Origin: Candidatus Nitrosopelagicus sp.
Lineage (GTDB): Archaea; Thermoproteota; Nitrososphaeria; Nitrososphaerales; Nitrosopumilaceae
Length of the DNA: 59,836 nucleotides
Direction of reading: 5' to 3'
NCBI GenBank assembly: GCA_028345195.1
Contig: JAOMCX010000007.1
Span: 1 to 59,836, forward strand
A program made the position numbers and the translations under genes. Shown one piece after another: positions 438 through 58,193 of the stretch. The notes under the pieces are model-generated. The model did not search any database, was not told where the DNA came from, and saw only the letters and a program-made list of their open reading frames with translations. How positions within the stretch are numbered: the first letter of the stretch is position 1; each line of letters starts with the position of its first letter.

Positions 438-1712
438 CTAATACAGATGACTCTGTAATTCAATTTGTTCTTCAGCAGACATTATTCCTTTTCTAACTAG
501 GATATCAAGCATATCTTTGAACAACTGTTTTTGTTCTTCAGACATTCCACCGGTTGGGCCTTTCTCTCCAGGTGGGCCAGGAGGACCGCGTGGGCCTTTC
601 TCTCCAACAGGTCCTTGTGGACCTTGTGAGCCTTTGTCGCCAGAAGGACCTTGCAAACCTTGTTTTCCTTGTTCACCTTGTGGACCTTGAATTCCTTGTG
701 GACCGCGTGGACCTTTGTCGCCAGTTAATCCAGGAGGACCTTGTTCGCCTTGTGGACCAATTGTTCCACGGTCACCTTGTGGACCTGGAACACCAGTTAT
801 GCCTTTGTCACCAGGAGTACCTTGTGGACCGCGTGGACCTTTCTCTCCAATTGGACCTGTAATTCCAATTTTTCCTTTTTCGCCTTGTGGACCTTGAGGA
901 CCGGTTGGGCCTTTCTCTCCCATTGGACCTGTAACACCTTTGTCGCCTCTTTCACCAACAGGACCAGGAACTCCTTTGTCTCCTTGAACACCAGGAGGAC
1001 CGGTTGGGCCTTTCTCTCCTTTGTCTCCACGTAAACCTGTTAATCCTTTGTCTCCAGATGGACCTTGAGCACCAGTGGTACCTTTGTCACCAATTAAACC
1101 ACGACCCCCCTGTTCACCTTTGTCTCCTTTGTCGCCGGTTAGACCTTTCTCTCCTTTGTCTCCAGTTCCACCTTTTACGCCAGGAGGACCTTTGTCACCT
1201 TTGTCTCCTTTGTCTCCAGTAACTCCTTTTTGTCCCGAAAGACCTTTGTCACCTGCAGGACCTTTGTCACCTTTGTCTCCTTTGTCCCCATCAGGACCAG
1301 GTTGACCTGGAGGACCTTTAACACCAGCGCTAGAAGAGCGCGACATTTGTTTTGTTTTTGATTGAGTTGAATCTGACTTTGGTTTTTGAGGAACCTGTCT
1401 CATTGTTTCAGGGACTTTAAATTCAAATGATGAACCAACAGATGAGAATTGATCAACAAGTATTATCCAAACAGTGGTAAATGTGGAAATTTTTTCAGGT
1501 AATGGATTTGATTGGGAACCTAATGTAGCCTCAAATTCTCCATTTTTTATATTGAGATGTGATTTTTCACGCCAAATTGGAAGAAATGATTTTTGTGCAA
1601 TTTGTTCACTAGTAGGCTTTGCTTCAGTGATAGCAAATTCCACTTCAAAGACGCCGTTTTTTTGTTTGTATGGAGATTGTCCTTTAACAGTAAAGTGCTC
1701 AGATGACGGCAT
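438..1712 (-). CDS. Collagen-like triple-helix repeat protein
   Basis: About 424 residues from the ATG at 1712; a TTG five codons upstream is possible, but an AT-rich box (TAAATAAATAC) lies 21 bases upstream of 1712. Residues 1-105 form a globular domain with the pattern '[10 protein letters not shown]...NPLP...VWIILV', reminiscent of domains preceding collagen stretches in other prokaryotic proteins. A Ser/Lys/Gln linker follows. Residues 130-387 are 86 uninterrupted Gly-X-Y triplets, dominated by GDK, GEK, GPQ and GPP. Frequent KGD/KGE pairs are known to stabilise triple helices without hydroxyproline. The last 35 residues form a charged helical tail starting MSEEQKQLF, perhaps a trimerisation element. 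I see no signal peptide or membrane anchor. Function unknown; a structural or phage-fibre-like role is possible. Confidence 0.85.
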
Positions 1713-1823
1713 AATCATTTCTTTCAATATCTAGTATTTATTTACATTTTCTAGCCATGTTAGGCATAGATTTGGCACTAGTAGCAGCTTAATATTTATC
1801 CGTTAAATGTAGAAATCTAATTC

Positions 1824-2930
1824 ATGAAGGATAAGAAAAAAGAAACAGCACTAAGTAAAAAAGATGAAACTAGTCTAACAAATGTCAATTATCAACGAGA
1901 TAGACTTTTCAAAAAAGGCATTAATTTGATGGCAGATGAGAAATTGGAAGAAGCTGTAGAAAATTTTGAGATGATATTACGAACAGACCCAAACGATGTA
2001 GAAGCAATGCTCAAACTTGGATATTCACGATTTCATTTAGATGACCATTCAGAAGCAATGAGAGTTTATGATAGAATTTTAGATATTGATGTGACAAATC
2101 CAGAAGCATGGAACTTAAAATCATTAGTAAATTATGAAAAAAAGAATTATGCTAAAGCATTAGACTGTGTTGAAAAAGCAATAGATTCAGACCCGACATA
2201 CGGAATGGCATGGTATAACAAAGGATGTTACCTTTCGATGCTAAATCAAGTCCCGGATTCATTAGAAGCATTAAAACGCTCAATTGAGATTGATGTTAAA
2301 AATGCAAGAAAAGCAGTTAAAGATAAAGACTTTGTAAATGTAAGATCAGAAGAAGGTTTTAAACGAATTATTGAAGTTGTGTTAATTGAATCATTAAGAC
2401 AAGGATACCATACAATTGGCGCAATTGTTTGGACAACATTCCTAGGAAAAGAAGATACTATCAAAGGATTAGATGAATTAATTTTAAAAGGTGTTGTTGT
2501 TAAAAATGAAAAAAGACAGGGATTCAACCAAATTATACCAATTTATGATTTGATACCAGATGTTGCAAAAAAACTTGGTGCAAAGAGAAGAGGACTACTT
2601 GGTCCAAAAGAGATTGGAAAAGTTCCGACACCTGTTAAAAGTCTAAAGGAAATTGGATTGGCGGTTCAAACAACAATGTCTGCAATAGAAAATGAAGATT
2701 TAGAAAAAACAATGGATAGTTTTGATGCATATATCAATCCGGCAAAATGTGGTCAACAAATGATTGAAGAATTTTTAGATGAACATAGAGAGATAAGATT
2801 GTTTAAAATTAGATTGGATGATAAAGGCAAAGATTACCTAATTGATAACAAAAAGAAAATGTTGGAATTATTTGAAAATATGGAAATTACAGTTACAAAG
2901 AAATTAAGAGCAAACGTTCCACAGAACTAA
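1824..2930 (+). CDS. Tetratricopeptide-repeat protein
   Basis: A 368-residue cytosolic protein. Residues about 25-165 hold at least four TPR units with the usual spacing (for example 'NPEAWNLKSLVNYEKKNYAKAL' pattern split over consecutive 34-residue blocks), which form a superhelical protein-binding surface. The second half (about 170-368) has no repeat; it contains a segment 'GAIVWTTFLGKEDTIKGLDELI' style region compatible with a winged-helix fold, and a Lys-rich C-terminus. The partner is unknown. Its stop codon shares bases with the convergent gene downstream. Confidence 0.75.
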   Translation: MKDKKKETALSKKDETSLTNVNYQRDRLFKKGINLMADEKLEEAVENFEMILRTDPNDVEAMLKLGYSRFHLDDHSEAMRVYDRILDIDVTNPEAWNLKSLVNYEKKNYAKALDCVEKAIDSDPTYGMAWYNKGCYLSMLNQVPDSLEALKRSIEIDVKNARKAVKDKDFVNVRSEEGFKRIIEVVLIESLRQGYHTIGAIVWTTFLGKEDTIKGLDELILKGVVVKNEKRQGFNQIIPIYDLIPDVAKKLGAKRRGLLGPKEIGKVPTPVKSLKEIGLAVQTTMSAIENEDLEKTMDSFDAYINPAKCGQQMIEEFLDEHREIRLFKIRLDDKGKDYLIDNKKKMLELFENMEITVTKKLRANVPQN

Positions 2931-3139: not shown

Positions 3140-3937
3140 TCACTCTGCAGAAAGATCCCAATAATTGGCATTTTCTTGTTTATCAATTGGTTTTTCAAGA
3201 CTTTTCCATTCTTTAAAGGAGTGGACATATAGTTTGACGTTTGGTACACCTATTGATTTTAGAGCATAATATGCCAATCCAGATAATGTTCCTACACTTC
3301 CACAATATGTGATTATTTCTGCATCCTCAGAAATACCTCTATTTTTTAAAAGAGTTTTCATGCCCTCTTTTGTTCTAAGTATTTTTCCATCGCTTGCAAG
3401 TGTTCTATATGGAATATTTATCGCACCAGGAATATGTTGTTCAAGATAATTTAGACGCTCACGATTATCAATTATTACAACATTTTTGTTTTCTTTAACT
3501 TTTTCAAGATATTCAGCAGTGGCCATAATTTCAGGATTAATTTTTACAGAGTGAGTTGCAGTTTCAATCTCAGGTACTTCAGTGGAAATTTCATATCCAA
3601 GATCTTTCCATTGTGAAAATGTTACATCCAATAATTTTACATCTTTATGCCCAATGTATTGTAAAGCCCAAACAACCCTAGAAGATAACGCGCCAAATGT
3701 ATCATCATAAATTACGACAGGTGTTTCATCAGAGATTCCCAAATCTTGTGCAATTTTTTGTATGGATTCTGAACTATCGTCAGCAAGAAGTTTTGCTAGA
3801 GGAAGATTTACAGAATTTGTTATATGACCTTGTTGATATTCTTGTTCTCGTCTAACATCAACAATTCGAATTGAGTTTTCTTGGATTTTTTCACGAAGAA
3901 GTTTTGAATTAATTATCGGAATATCAGAATCGATCAT
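3140..3937 (-). CDS. Two-domain rhodanese (sulfurtransferase)
   Basis: About 265 residues with two tandem rhodanese domains. Enzymes of this class move sulfane sulfur, for example from thiosulfate or 3-mercaptopyruvate, through a cysteine persulfide. The C-terminal domain carries the active-site loop 'TYCGSVGT' (Cys212 from this start). The matching loop of the N-terminal domain reads 'YDDTFG', so that domain lacks the Cys and is probably structural, as is usual in the family. I chose the ATG at 3937 because it overlaps the upstream sulfite-reductase stop as ATGA, a typical coupling junction; an ATG three codons earlier is also in frame. Partnership with the upstream reductase suggests a role in sulfur assimilation. 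Confidence 0.85.
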   Translation of the reverse strand: MIDSDIPIINSKLLREKIQENSIRIVDVRREQEYQQGHITNSVNLPLAKLLADDSSESIQKIAQDLGISDETPVVIYDDTFGALSSRVVWALQYIGHKDVKLLDVTFSQWKDLGYEISTEVPEIETATHSVKINPEIMATAEYLEKVKENKNVVIIDNRERLNYLEQHIPGAINIPYRTLASDGKILRTKEGMKTLLKNRGISEDAEIITYCGSVGTLSGLAYYALKSIGVPNVKLYVHSFKEWKSLEKPIDKQENANYWDLSAE

Positions 3938-5736
3938 GCAGCACATTCACCTTTTCCAGTTACGGTGTGATAATTTGTATCACTTCCATAATCCATGTAG
4001 AAATCAGGTTCATCTTCAACATTCGGAGGAACTATGAGAGGTGCAATTGCTTTTTTGATATCATCAACGCCTGTAATTTTTGAGGATTCATTTCCACTAA
4101 CAACTCTATCAATCCATTTAGCTAGTGTATCATCAGATTGTTTATTTTCTTTAAACAGTTCAATGATTTTTAGAATTACAGGAATTATACGTTTTACAGG
4201 AACACGTGCGGTATGATGACCAAGCATTGCATCTTCATCGAATTTACCTCCTAATGACATCGTATAATTTGGGAACATGTCAGTTCCATGTCTACCGCCA
4301 CCACCATAAAATCCGATTGTTGCAATTTGGTGTTGTCCACAAGAGTTAGGACATCCACTAATTTTGATTGTGGAATCTTTCAAGTCATCATCGTCATCAT
4401 AATTTAGTTCTAAGAATTTTCTTTGTACTTCTTTTGCCAGTCTATGAGAGTTAGTTAATGCAAGATTACAAGAGGTCGTACCAGAACATCCTACTGCAGA
4501 TGCCATTGTTAATGAGCCAGTTTTAGCAAGGCCATTTTCAATTAGTCGAGAATACATGGATTTAAGATCATCATCATGAACATAACGAATTACAATATTT
4601 TGTGAGAATCCATTTCTAGCAAAACCTTCAGCAGAATAATCACGGATTATTTCTGCTACACTTCTTAGTTGATTAGCCGTAATATCTCCAGCCTCTAAAC
4701 CAATGAATACAGAATTAAAACCAGATTGAGATTGTTTTTCAACGTTGGTTTTTTCCCATCTTGCATATCCATCAGGAACAGAAGCAGATTCATCATTAAC
4801 AGATATTGGCCTTTGAATCTCATTTACACTCTCATCAATATTTAATTTAACGATAACAGATTGAGTAGCTTTTACAACAGCTCTTTCTTTTAAGACAAGG
4901 TTTTGGAATTTTTCCCAACCCAAATCGTTTACCAAATAACGCATTCTATTTCGAGATAGATTTTTTCTGTCACCCATTCTGTCAAAAATTCTAATTACGG
5001 CCATCGAAGTATAAAGTAAATCTTCAACAGGAGTAAAGTCTTCTAATTGATGACCTACAAATGAACGATTTCCTAATCCACCACCTAAGAAAATTTTAAA
5101 GCCTTTTCTTTTTTCTCCATCAATTTCTTGGATTTGAGGTAAAAGACCAACATCCACAATTCGTATCATTCCATGTTTTTCACAACACGTAAAATTAAAT
5201 TTGAATTTACGTGGAAGTCCTTGGCATATTGGATTTCTAAGCATAAATCTTGCAATTGCCATTGCATATGGAGTTGCATCAAAAATTTCATCTTTACAAA
5301 CACCAGACATAGGACTACACATTACATTTCTTACGGTATTTCCACATGCTTCACGTGATGTCATGCCAACATCAGCAAGCGATTGCATTATTTCAGAAAC
5401 ATCTTCAAGTATTACCCAGTGAAGTTGAATATTTTCACGAGTTGAGAAATGTGCACTGCCAATTGAATACATCTCACTTAACTGAGCAATTTTTTCTAAT
5501 TGATTTGGATACACTTGTCCTGCTGGAACTTTGATTCGAACCATCGCATAATCATCAGTCATACGTGTACCGTATGCCCCATGTTGTAAACGGAATCTAC
5601 GGAACATGTCAGGATCAATCTTGCCTTGTCGGAATAGCTTCACGGTTTCAGCAAAATTTTCTGCTTCTTGTCTTCTGGACCAATCAATCTTTGACTGTTT
5701 ATCAGCCGGTTTTGATGGTCTTAGCTGTTGTGCCAT
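3934..5736 (-). CDS. Ferredoxin-type sulfite/nitrite reductase (siroheme, 4Fe-4S)
   Basis: About 600 residues. The protein has the duplicated nitrite/sulfite reductase architecture. The siroheme-Fe4S4 ligands are present as CSGTTSC (Cx5C) and CPNSC (Cx3C), separated by about 40 residues. The enzyme performs a six-electron reduction, sulfite to sulfide or nitrite to ammonium. Sequence alone cannot separate these with certainty; overlap with a rhodanese gene and the nearby TusA and THI4 genes favour sulfite. I chose the ATG at 5736 ('MAQQLRPSKPADK'), because the 20 codons upstream look unlike the family N-terminus. The gene is divergent from THI4, with a short shared promoter region. Confidence 0.85.
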   Translation of the reverse strand: MAQQLRPSKPADKQSKIDWSRRQEAENFAETVKLFRQGKIDPDMFRRFRLQHGAYGTRMTDDYAMVRIKVPAGQVYPNQLEKIAQLSEMYSIGSAHFSTRENIQLHWVILEDVSEIMQSLADVGMTSREACGNTVRNVMCSPMSGVCKDEIFDATPYAMAIARFMLRNPICQGLPRKFKFNFTCCEKHGMIRIVDVGLLPQIQEIDGEKRKGFKIFLGGGLGNRSFVGHQLEDFTPVEDLLYTSMAVIRIFDRMGDRKNLSRNRMRYLVNDLGWEKFQNLVLKERAVVKATQSVIVKLNIDESVNEIQRPISVNDESASVPDGYARWEKTNVEKQSQSGFNSVFIGLEAGDITANQLRSVAEIIRDYSAEGFARNGFSQNIVIRYVHDDDLKSMYSRLIENGLAKTGSLTMASAVGCSGTTSCNLALTNSHRLAKEVQRKFLELNYDDDDDLKDSTIKISGCPNSCGQHQIATIGFYGGGGRHGTDMFPNYTMSLGGKFDEDAMLGHHTARVPVKRIIPVILKIIELFKENKQSDDTLAKWIDRVVSGNESSKITGVDDIKKAIAPLIVPPNVEDEPDFYMDYGSDTNYHTVTGKGECAA

Positions 5737-5873
5737 CTGTCTATTTTTGATCGCAGTGTAGTTATAAGTTTTTGATATAGGTAAAGTTACACACATCGAT
5801 TAAACAAAGTATACATTTTTGCCGGTTTGTGTTAGTATAACCTAATTTCGAATAAGAATACCCAAAGCTATTA

Positions 5874-21273: not shown

Positions 21274-21780
21274 TTATTTTGAGATATCAATTTCAATGGT
21301 AGAAACATTACGGGTTTTTCCATCTCTTGATTCCAATGCATCAGATGATATTCTTACATCAGATATTCTATAGCCAATAGAATGCATACGTTTCATAATG
21401 AATTGAGATACATCTACGGCCTGAGTAATACGTTGACCTCTAGCCTTAATTGTTACAGTGGGTAAGGTCGATAGTTGTGTTAATGTTGAATTCACATACG
21501 TTACCAAAGGTTTTACCCCTACCAAAATTAATTTTCGTGTAGGTTTTTCTTCTGGACTAAATGGTTTTTTTGAAGATTTCGTTTCAGATTCTTCGTTAAT
21601 TGTAGATTCTGGTGCACGTTCAGGTTGTGGTTCTGGTGCACGTTCAGGTTGTGGTTCTGATGCACGTTCAGGTTGTGGTTCTGGTGCACGTTCAGGTTGT
21701 GGTTCTGGTGCACTTTCAGGTTTTTTTGAATCTTCTAATATTTCATCAAGAATATCAGATGCATCAGAATTTGAACTCAT
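21274..21780 (-). CDS. Alba-family nucleic-acid-binding protein with N-terminal repeat extension
   Basis: A 168-residue protein. Residues about 80-168 are an Alba domain ('KLILVGVKPLVTYVNSTL', 'VTIKARGQRITQAVD', 'RNVSTIEIDI'), a DNA/RNA-binding chromatin fold. In Sulfolobus Alba the pair Lys16-Lys17 lies in GKKP; here it is GVKP, so the first, acetylatable Lys is missing. Residues about 24-58 are four to five copies of an octapeptide (A/S)PEPQPER-type repeat, then an acidic stretch. Most archaeal Albas lack such an extension. It may be a spacer or a protein-binding tail. Confidence 0.9.
   Translation of the reverse strand: MSSNSDASDILDEILEDSKKPESAPEPQPERAPEPQPERASEPQPERAPEPQPERAPESTINEESETKSSKKPFSPEEKPTRKLILVGVKPLVTYVNSTLTQLSTLPTVTIKARGQRITQAVDVSQFIMKRMHSIGYRISDVRISSDALESRDGKTRNVSTIEIDISK
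21608..21714 (-). repeat. 24-bp tandem repeat inside the Alba gene
   Basis: Four to five near-identical 24-bp units (plus strand: GGTGCACGTTCAGGTTGTGG followed by TTCT), each encoding eight residues. Units differ by single bases, and the array stays in frame, so copy-number change would alter only linker length. Confidence 0.9.
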
Positions 21781-57314: not shown

Positions 57315-58193
57315 TTAATGTCCAGTGTTTGCTTTTGCACCTGCAGGTCCCCAACCTTTTGGCATTGATCCTCGGTTAGATTGTGCGGCTGCGGTTGCTG
57401 CTGCTTCTGCTGCGGCTGCTTCTGCTGCTGCTTTTGCATCATCAACTTTTTTCTGTTCTAGACGTACCAGGTATTCTTTCTCATAATCTTCAAGTTCTTG
57501 CTGCTTTGATTTTCCATCAGATGCATTTCCAGTACTAGCCTGAACTTCAGGTTGTGGAGGTGGTGGAGGTGGTGGAGCAGATTTTGTTTGTCCACTTGCC
57601 GGAGCATCATTTATCCAAGTACCAAATTTTTTGGCTTCCGGATGATATGCAAGTCTCTGTTTTGTTGCAAAGTACTTGTTTCCTGGTGCTGTGTAACCAG
57701 TGATTTTTGTTTTGTGATCATTCCAGTTGGATGGTGTAACTTCAGTTTGCGCTACAAGAGCTCTGCTACCAAAGTATCGGTTACCAGGTGCAGTGAAACC
57801 AGTGATTGCAACTTTTTGTGTGTTCCAGTTTCCTGTTGGAATTTCACGGAATCTTTCGTGAAGCGGAACTGAAGGTGCTTTCTCTGCAGGTTTTGGTGGT
57901 GCCTTATCTGCAGGCTTTTCATCATGTCCGTGTGGACCGCCACCGCCTTCTGGTTTTTTAACTTCTGCTGGTTTTGGTTTTGGTGCAGTTTCTGCTGGTT
58001 TTGGAGCCGGTTTTGGAGCTGGTTTTGATTCAGCACCTGCTGCAAGACCTGATAATCGCTTTTCTAATTGAGCAATCTTTGCTTCTAAATCAGCTTTTGT
58101 TGTTCTTGAAGATGTTGTTTTACGTTTTGTTGTTGTTTTACGTTTTGTTGTTGTTTTACGTTTTGTTGTTGTACGCTTTTTCGATGTCGCCAT
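57315..58193 (-). CDS. 292-aa ANTGH-tail protein with basic N-terminus and two NWN-APGN repeats
   Basis: Layout: residues 1-33 are a Lys/Thr-rich tandem repeat (TTTKRK units), resembling histone H1 tails; a short coiled coil at about 34-50; a Pro/Ala-rich linker with 'GPHGHDEKP' at 86-94; two direct repeats at about 121-144 and 156-180 with the core 'NWN..K..ITG(F/Y)TAPGN(R/K)YF'; a second Pro-rich linker; a helix; and an Ala-rich stretch. It ends 'MPKGWGPAGAKANTGH'. The tail and the GPHGHDEKP motif are shared with the small genes downstream of it on this strand. No signal peptide. Function unknown; the basic end suggests nucleic-acid or polyanion binding. Confidence 0.85.
   Translation of the reverse strand: MATSKKRTTTKRKTTTKRKTTTKRKTTSSRTTKADLEAKIAQLEKRLSGLAAGAESKPAPKPAPKPAETAPKPKPAEVKKPEGGGGPHGHDEKPADKAPPKPAEKAPSVPLHERFREIPTGNWNTQKVAITGFTAPGNRYFGSRALVAQTEVTPSNWNDHKTKITGYTAPGNKYFATKQRLAYHPEAKKFGTWINDAPASGQTKSAPPPPPPPQPEVQASTGNASDGKSKQQELEDYEKEYLVRLEQKKVDDAKAAAEAAAAEAAATAAAQSNRGSMPKGWGPAGAKANTGH
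58134..58190 (-). repeat. Tandem repeat encoding TTTKRK units
   Basis: Three in-frame copies of an 18-base unit (plus strand CGTTTTGTTGTTGTTTTA) code for the basic N-terminus of the 292-aa protein. Units are almost identical, which points to slippage or recent duplication. Confidence 0.85.

Follow-up and report, generated by a model that had tools for sequence, protein, structure and literature searches.

A single-copy collagen-like protein without a known export signal at a fixed chromosomal locus of the Nitrosopumilaceae

Introduction

Most of what is known of collagen-like proteins in prokaryotes concerns exported adhesins, which are variable, and the fibers of phages. Streptococcal Scl1 and Scl2 (NCBIfam models NF038329 and NF038330) have a long Gly-X-Y rod, free of hydroxyproline, between non-collagenous domains, and exosporium proteins of the BclA type in Bacillus join a collagen-like rod to a stabilizing C-terminal domain (PMC8968730). 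Phage tail fibers with collagen repeats (PHROGs 819, 6320 and 5073) also contain Gly-X-Y rods, made in the cytosol. Archaeal examples include exported proteins with Gly-X-Y repeats in the Nitrososphaeraceae. In addition, LPXTG-anchored collagen-like adhesins have been reported in Ca. Nitrosotenuis chungbukensis, one of which was present in the proteome and was discussed as a surface protein (PMC13037477).

Here we analyzed a gene for a collagen-like protein, designated COL, in Candidatus Nitrosopelagicus sp. (a genome of 1.1 Mb in 31 contigs). The whole stretch of DNA analyzed, 59,836 nucleotides beginning at a contig end, is referred to as the window. We found that COL is a core gene of nearly every marine ammonia-oxidizing member of the Nitrosopumilaceae, located at one chromosomal place. 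A search of the open literature on collagen combined with Nitrosopumilus, ammonia-oxidizing archaea or thaumarchaeal genera (subscription papers were outside its scope) returned no description of this family, which is thus apparently undescribed there.

Results

Anatomy of the COL protein

The gene and the parts of its product are as follows.

438..1712, minus strand: collagen-like protein gene COL (ATG start, 424 aa plus stop; ORF call and Pfam)
1401..1712, minus strand: N-terminal beta-sandwich domain, aa 1-104 (alignment of diverse members; AlphaFold2 pLDDT 80)
1326..1400, minus strand: linker, aa 105-129, variable, basic and rich in Ser, Lys and Pro
543..1325, minus strand: Gly-X-Y rod, aa 130-390, 87 triplets without interruption
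558..596, minus strand: conserved segment at the C-terminal end of the rod, aa 373-385 (GPP density; motif in nearly all members inspected)
441..542, minus strand: C-terminal helical-hairpin tail, aa 391-424, terminus -SHLY/-SYLY

COL matched the Pfam Collagen family (PF01391) with an E-value of 1.3e-42 and a score of 143.8 bits against a curated cut-off of 27.2; the repeat was continuous in the sense of that family, and Pro occupied the X position in 28 of the 87 triplets. The original prediction had counted 86 perfect triplets, which is right if the final one, GGM, is left out. It had also pointed to frequent KGD and KGE pairs, of which we counted 5 and 3, respectively, along with many GDK triplets. 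At 7% Gly, the chance of 87 in-register glycines is about 1e-100.

Both end domains had been anticipated as well, and AlphaFold2, run with 13 close sequences only, modeled the N-domain as a beta-sandwich (pTM 0.72) and the tail as two helices (pLDDT 83). Residues invariant across 16 diverse members of the N-domain (alignment A1) include W47, G65, P70, P72 and D87. No family for this domain was found in Pfam, NCBIfam, PHROG or PDB, and a fold search of PDB gave no confident match; it may resemble beta-sandwich domains of exported bacterial proteins. The tail of the window protein had no Pfam match and no significant sequence relative in PDB, and its fold matches were short generic helical hairpins only. 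In the six family genomes tested, a tail profile gave a significant match on the COL gene only. The tail ended in YLY, HLY or FLY in every member, and the C-terminal end of the rod was nearly always the same 10-residue segment followed by [ED]KG; GPP triplets peaked in density over the final tenth of the rod. Since the rod end and tail resemble the nucleation site and the trimerization domain of other collagens, the segment at aa 373-385 is a probable candidate for triple-helix nucleation and the tail a probable candidate for trimerization.

Rod length and periodicity across the family

The rods of 75 distinct complete family proteins ranged from 68 to 163 triplets (7,929 triplets in total, zero interruptions), a span that would correspond to 58-140 nm as a triple helix. 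The commoner lengths were 68-70, 87, 101-104 and 119-125 triplets. A comparison of triplet numbers among strains, proposed with the original prediction, showed that length was fixed at exactly 87 in 16 distinct members of the genus, with identity down to 68%, and was different in other clades. In all genera examined, charged triplets recurred along the rod with a period of about 4 triplets (12 residues), probably with phase slip; a first reading of the period, 3.93 triplets, is better explained in this way. The charge register was conserved from the C-terminal anchor (R 0.83 for 24 rods that differ in length) much more than from the N-terminal anchor (R 0.31). The simplest explanation of this periodicity is past growth in 36-bp modules; the spacing is possibly also useful for lateral packing.

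The repeat is highly charged and proline-rich, and it might instead not be triple helical at all, belonging to a disordered, low-complexity chain such as a condensate or stress protein. A metatranscriptome study (PMC5069720) classed as disordered a set of marine euryarchaeal proteins with high expression, among them one cluster annotated as collagen-like. However, the unbroken register, the conserved GPP cap and the conserved helical tail would all be superfluous for a disordered chain, and we regard this explanation as improbable. The same three features are what a triple helix needs and therefore favor a triple-helical rod.

Base composition and selection

GC content of the COL repeat was 0.52, compared with 0.31-0.40 in other genes. 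The original prediction, which had attributed this difference either to Gly and Pro codons or to transfer, was right about the former and not about the latter: GC3 of COL (0.207) fell within the range of its neighbors (0.16-0.23), which indicates a codon effect and no sign of transfer, and the locus was syntenic across the family. Recent horizontal transfer or an assembly artifact, which the high GC of the repeat and the position of the window at a contig end might have suggested, is refuted by this GC3 and by independent assemblies in which a nearly identical gene is flanked in the same way. COL is under strong purifying selection. All 87 glycines were invariant in the 16 genus members (Gly codons, dN=0 and dS about 0.5), and median dN/dS was about 0.06 for the N-domain (the median alone is used here, since a gap of one residue in three rows inflates the means), 0.11 for the whole rod and about 0.01 (0.011) for the tail.

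Distribution of COL

Collagen-like proteins had been expected to be rare in archaea, and this expectation failed: PF01391 matches occurred in 218 of 250 family genomes, including 124 of 131 good ones, and in 22 of 22 genera. Within the genus, relatives of the full COL protein appeared in 27 of 31 genomes; the real count is 26, the match in one genome (G022) being a low-complexity false match. A search with the N-domain only, another of the checks proposed at the outset, likewise spoke against rarity. Of 400 genomes of the order, 192 had a match to the A1 profile, almost always a single one; they came from 22 of 66 genera, which is the number of genera in the Nitrosopumilaceae, and all matches lay in that one family. 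A phylum-wide sample of 398 genomes gave no convincing match outside it, the sole candidate (E=0.047) being a 38-aa frame with stops.

COL was present, in one copy, in all 24 single-contig genomes of the family. In one of them (L084, G071:C1) it was split by frameshifts into three frames corresponding to N-domain, rod and tail, a result of sequencing error or of gene decay. Eight family genomes without COL were compared with a profile for the TPR-protein gene that adjoins it (see below). In five of these the contig ends on the side of the TPR gene where COL would lie, in one case within the TPR gene itself, and true losses are therefore few; two lacked the TPR gene too, and one (G058) had another gene at this place.

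Locus and synteny

The genes next to COL in the window are listed below.

1824..2930, plus strand: divergent TPR-protein gene, a constant neighbor, also found without COL in related families
3140-3946, minus strand: rhodanese gene, conserved housekeeping context
3934-5796, minus strand: nitrite/sulfite reductase-like gene, conserved housekeeping context

The TPR gene lay directly upstream of COL, head to head with it, at 59 of 62 loci. Twenty relatives representing many genera had the TPR gene head to head beside COL, followed in most by genes for rhodanese, nitrite/sulfite reductase-like and Thi4-like proteins, and the COL neighbors in the relatives examined were cytoplasmic enzymes and translation genes. 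The TPR gene was also found in genomes of two other groups of the order, f8 and f2 (read as Nitrososphaeraceae and Nitrosocaldaceae), where the N-domain is absent, which suggests that it is older than COL. The ancestor of the family thus probably acquired COL next to the TPR gene, or evolved it there. Outside the genus, a 94-aa family ending in QMFS (f11) was often found directly downstream of COL (L080, L082, L091, L095).

A link to viruses had also been raised, in which COL would be a tail-fiber-like protein, resident or domesticated. The rod alone resembled PHROG tail fibers, as any collagen repeat would, and in the fold search one phage protein weakly matched the N-domain (E 3.4e-4, TM 0.41), a TM value reached by many beta-sandwiches. 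However, no relative of the N-domain was found in viral contigs, phages or plasmids, and it had no PHROG match at E<0.1. The housekeeping synteny in the 20 relatives, which offered no phage tail context, and the single copy per genome across 22 genera also argue against this explanation, and a survey of thaumarchaeal integrated elements made no mention of collagen (PMC6563490). We consider a viral origin largely refuted and very improbable.

Two other repeat proteins were observed in the window. One (21274-21780, minus strand; 168 aa) carries at its N-terminus a tail in which the octapeptide EPQPERAP repeats (24-bp array in the DNA, 21607-21722), and by eye its C-terminal part resembles the Alba chromatin domain. 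The other (57315-58193, minus strand; 292 aa) has a very basic repeated N-terminus (KRKTTTKRKTTTKRKTTT) with a perfect 18-bp array at 58113-58172, followed by a middle part rich in Pro and Ala and by two copies of a motif of the KITGYTAPGN type.

Start codon, promoter and export signals

The 75 upstream regions of the family yielded a consensus promoter element.

1734..1743, minus strand: TATA-like promoter element AAATAAATAC, -31 to -22 from the ATG

Across these members an AT-rich TATA-like block was centered near -27 from the start codon. About -27 is the usual archaeal distance of the TATA box to the transcription start, so transcription would begin at or near the ATG, which makes leaderless COL transcripts probable and a start codon further upstream unlikely. 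Longer in-frame starts would add at most 5 residues. No signal peptide, transmembrane segment or LPXTG motif was found in the sequence of the window protein, whose most hydrophobic stretch (residues 75-89) lies inside the folded N-domain, and no signal-like N-terminus was seen among the family members listed. A signal peptide gained through a longer start was ruled out by hydrophobicity, start positions and promoter position. The original prediction of a collagen-like protein without a signal peptide is therefore borne out; there was neither an N-terminal hydrophobic stretch nor a longer start with a cleavable signal. As judged from sequence, cytoplasmic residence would be the simplest reading.

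Clear hydrophobic signal-like N-termini and other end domains were found in unrelated collagen-like proteins of the Nitrososphaeraceae (L149-L152) and in an additional protein of the Nitrosopumilaceae (L056, G217). These archaea thus have two classes of collagen, and COL lacks the export signal of the other class. One of the unrelated proteins continues into Calx-beta-like repeats, and others have variable short rods. The distribution of the exported Nitrososphaeraceae proteins was patchy (21 of 70 genomes).

COL might nevertheless act at the cell surface, as a filament associated with the S-layer or as an adhesin, and be released by a route that requires no classical signal peptide. Most characterized prokaryotic collagen-like proteins sit on surfaces (PMC8968730), and the LPXTG-annotated adhesin of Ca. 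N. chungbukensis was highly expressed, besides being detected in the proteome, in dilute medium (PMC13037477). The top-scoring NCBIfam models for the COL family are also such adhesins, NF038329 and NF038330 among them, although all scores were below cut-off: against NF038329 (Scl2/SclB), COL reached 170.5 bits and six family members 208-281, compared with a cut-off of 325. Because these matches are to adhesins, the protein reported from Ca. N. chungbukensis may itself belong to the COL family under a misleading name. The features weighing against a surface location are the missing signal peptide, transmembrane segment and LPXTG motif, the signal-like N-termini of other collagen-like proteins in the same order, and the cytoplasmic enzymes and translation genes around COL. 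Taken together, they make this location rather less likely than a cytoplasmic one.

Discussion

The reading that we prefer, and to which we give about an even chance, is that COL forms a homotrimeric rod, cytoplasmic or at least without a known export signal, which is nucleated at its C-terminus and serves as a strut or spacer. Three identical chains would be joined by their C-terminal helical hairpins, and the segment adjoining the tail would nucleate a triple helix that zips toward the N-terminus. The predicted product is a stiff rod, about 75 nm long if triple helical (0.286 nm per residue), with three beta-sandwich heads at the far end. Within the cell, such a rod would most likely be a strut, spacer or cross-linker of a length that does not vary within a lineage. 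Anatomy, constraint, single copy, locus and the missing signal are observed; trimer, folding direction, location and strut role are inferred. Three points count against this reading: most collagen-like proteins known so far act outside cells or belong to virions or spores, the collagen-like protein in the proteome of Ca. N. chungbukensis was discussed as a surface protein (PMC13037477), and rod length differs between lineages, so that any spacer length is not universal. With regard to modifying enzymes, about 5-6 family genomes had no match to prolyl hydroxylase (PF13640) above cut-off, and six genomes had none to lysyl oxidase (PF01186), for which the control gave no match either. Bacterial collagens make triple helices without hydroxyproline (PMC8968730).

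A further suggestion is that this intracellular collagen is a core architectural rod of the Nitrosopumilaceae that sets or braces cell dimensions. Nitrosopumilaceae are rod-shaped and Nitrososphaeraceae coccoid (PMC13037477), and the distribution of COL coincides with the former and excludes the latter, which amounts to a single evolutionary contrast. We consider such a role rather unlikely.

COL occurs in some of the ocean's most abundant archaea, with end domains specific to the family and no export signal, and it is a concrete candidate structural protein for cells whose internal architecture is poorly understood. The series of rods from 68 to 163 triplets provides a natural test set for what sets triple-helix length. 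Naming members of this family as adhesins on the strength of their Gly-X-Y repeat is misleading.

Compared with the variable exported adhesins and phage fibers described so far, COL is single-copy, syntenic and slowly evolving. Unlike Scl1 and Scl2, it has neither a signal peptide nor an LPXTG anchor, its end domains are unrelated, and it is an archaeal core gene; moreover, the trimerization domain of the streptococcal proteins is N-terminal, whereas the one predicted for COL is C-terminal. BclA, too, is produced intracellularly and has no classical signal peptide, but its length varies between strains, whereas COL length is fixed within a clade. The COL host has no spore, and the tail of COL is a 34-aa helical hairpin in place of a C1q/TNF-like C-terminal domain. 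Phage tail fibers differ from COL in their unrelated end domains, and COL has chromosomal synteny and no phage neighbors. The collagen-like proteins of the Nitrososphaeraceae, although from the same archaeal order, are set apart from COL by signal-like N-termini, short repeats, other end domains and, in some genomes, several loci.
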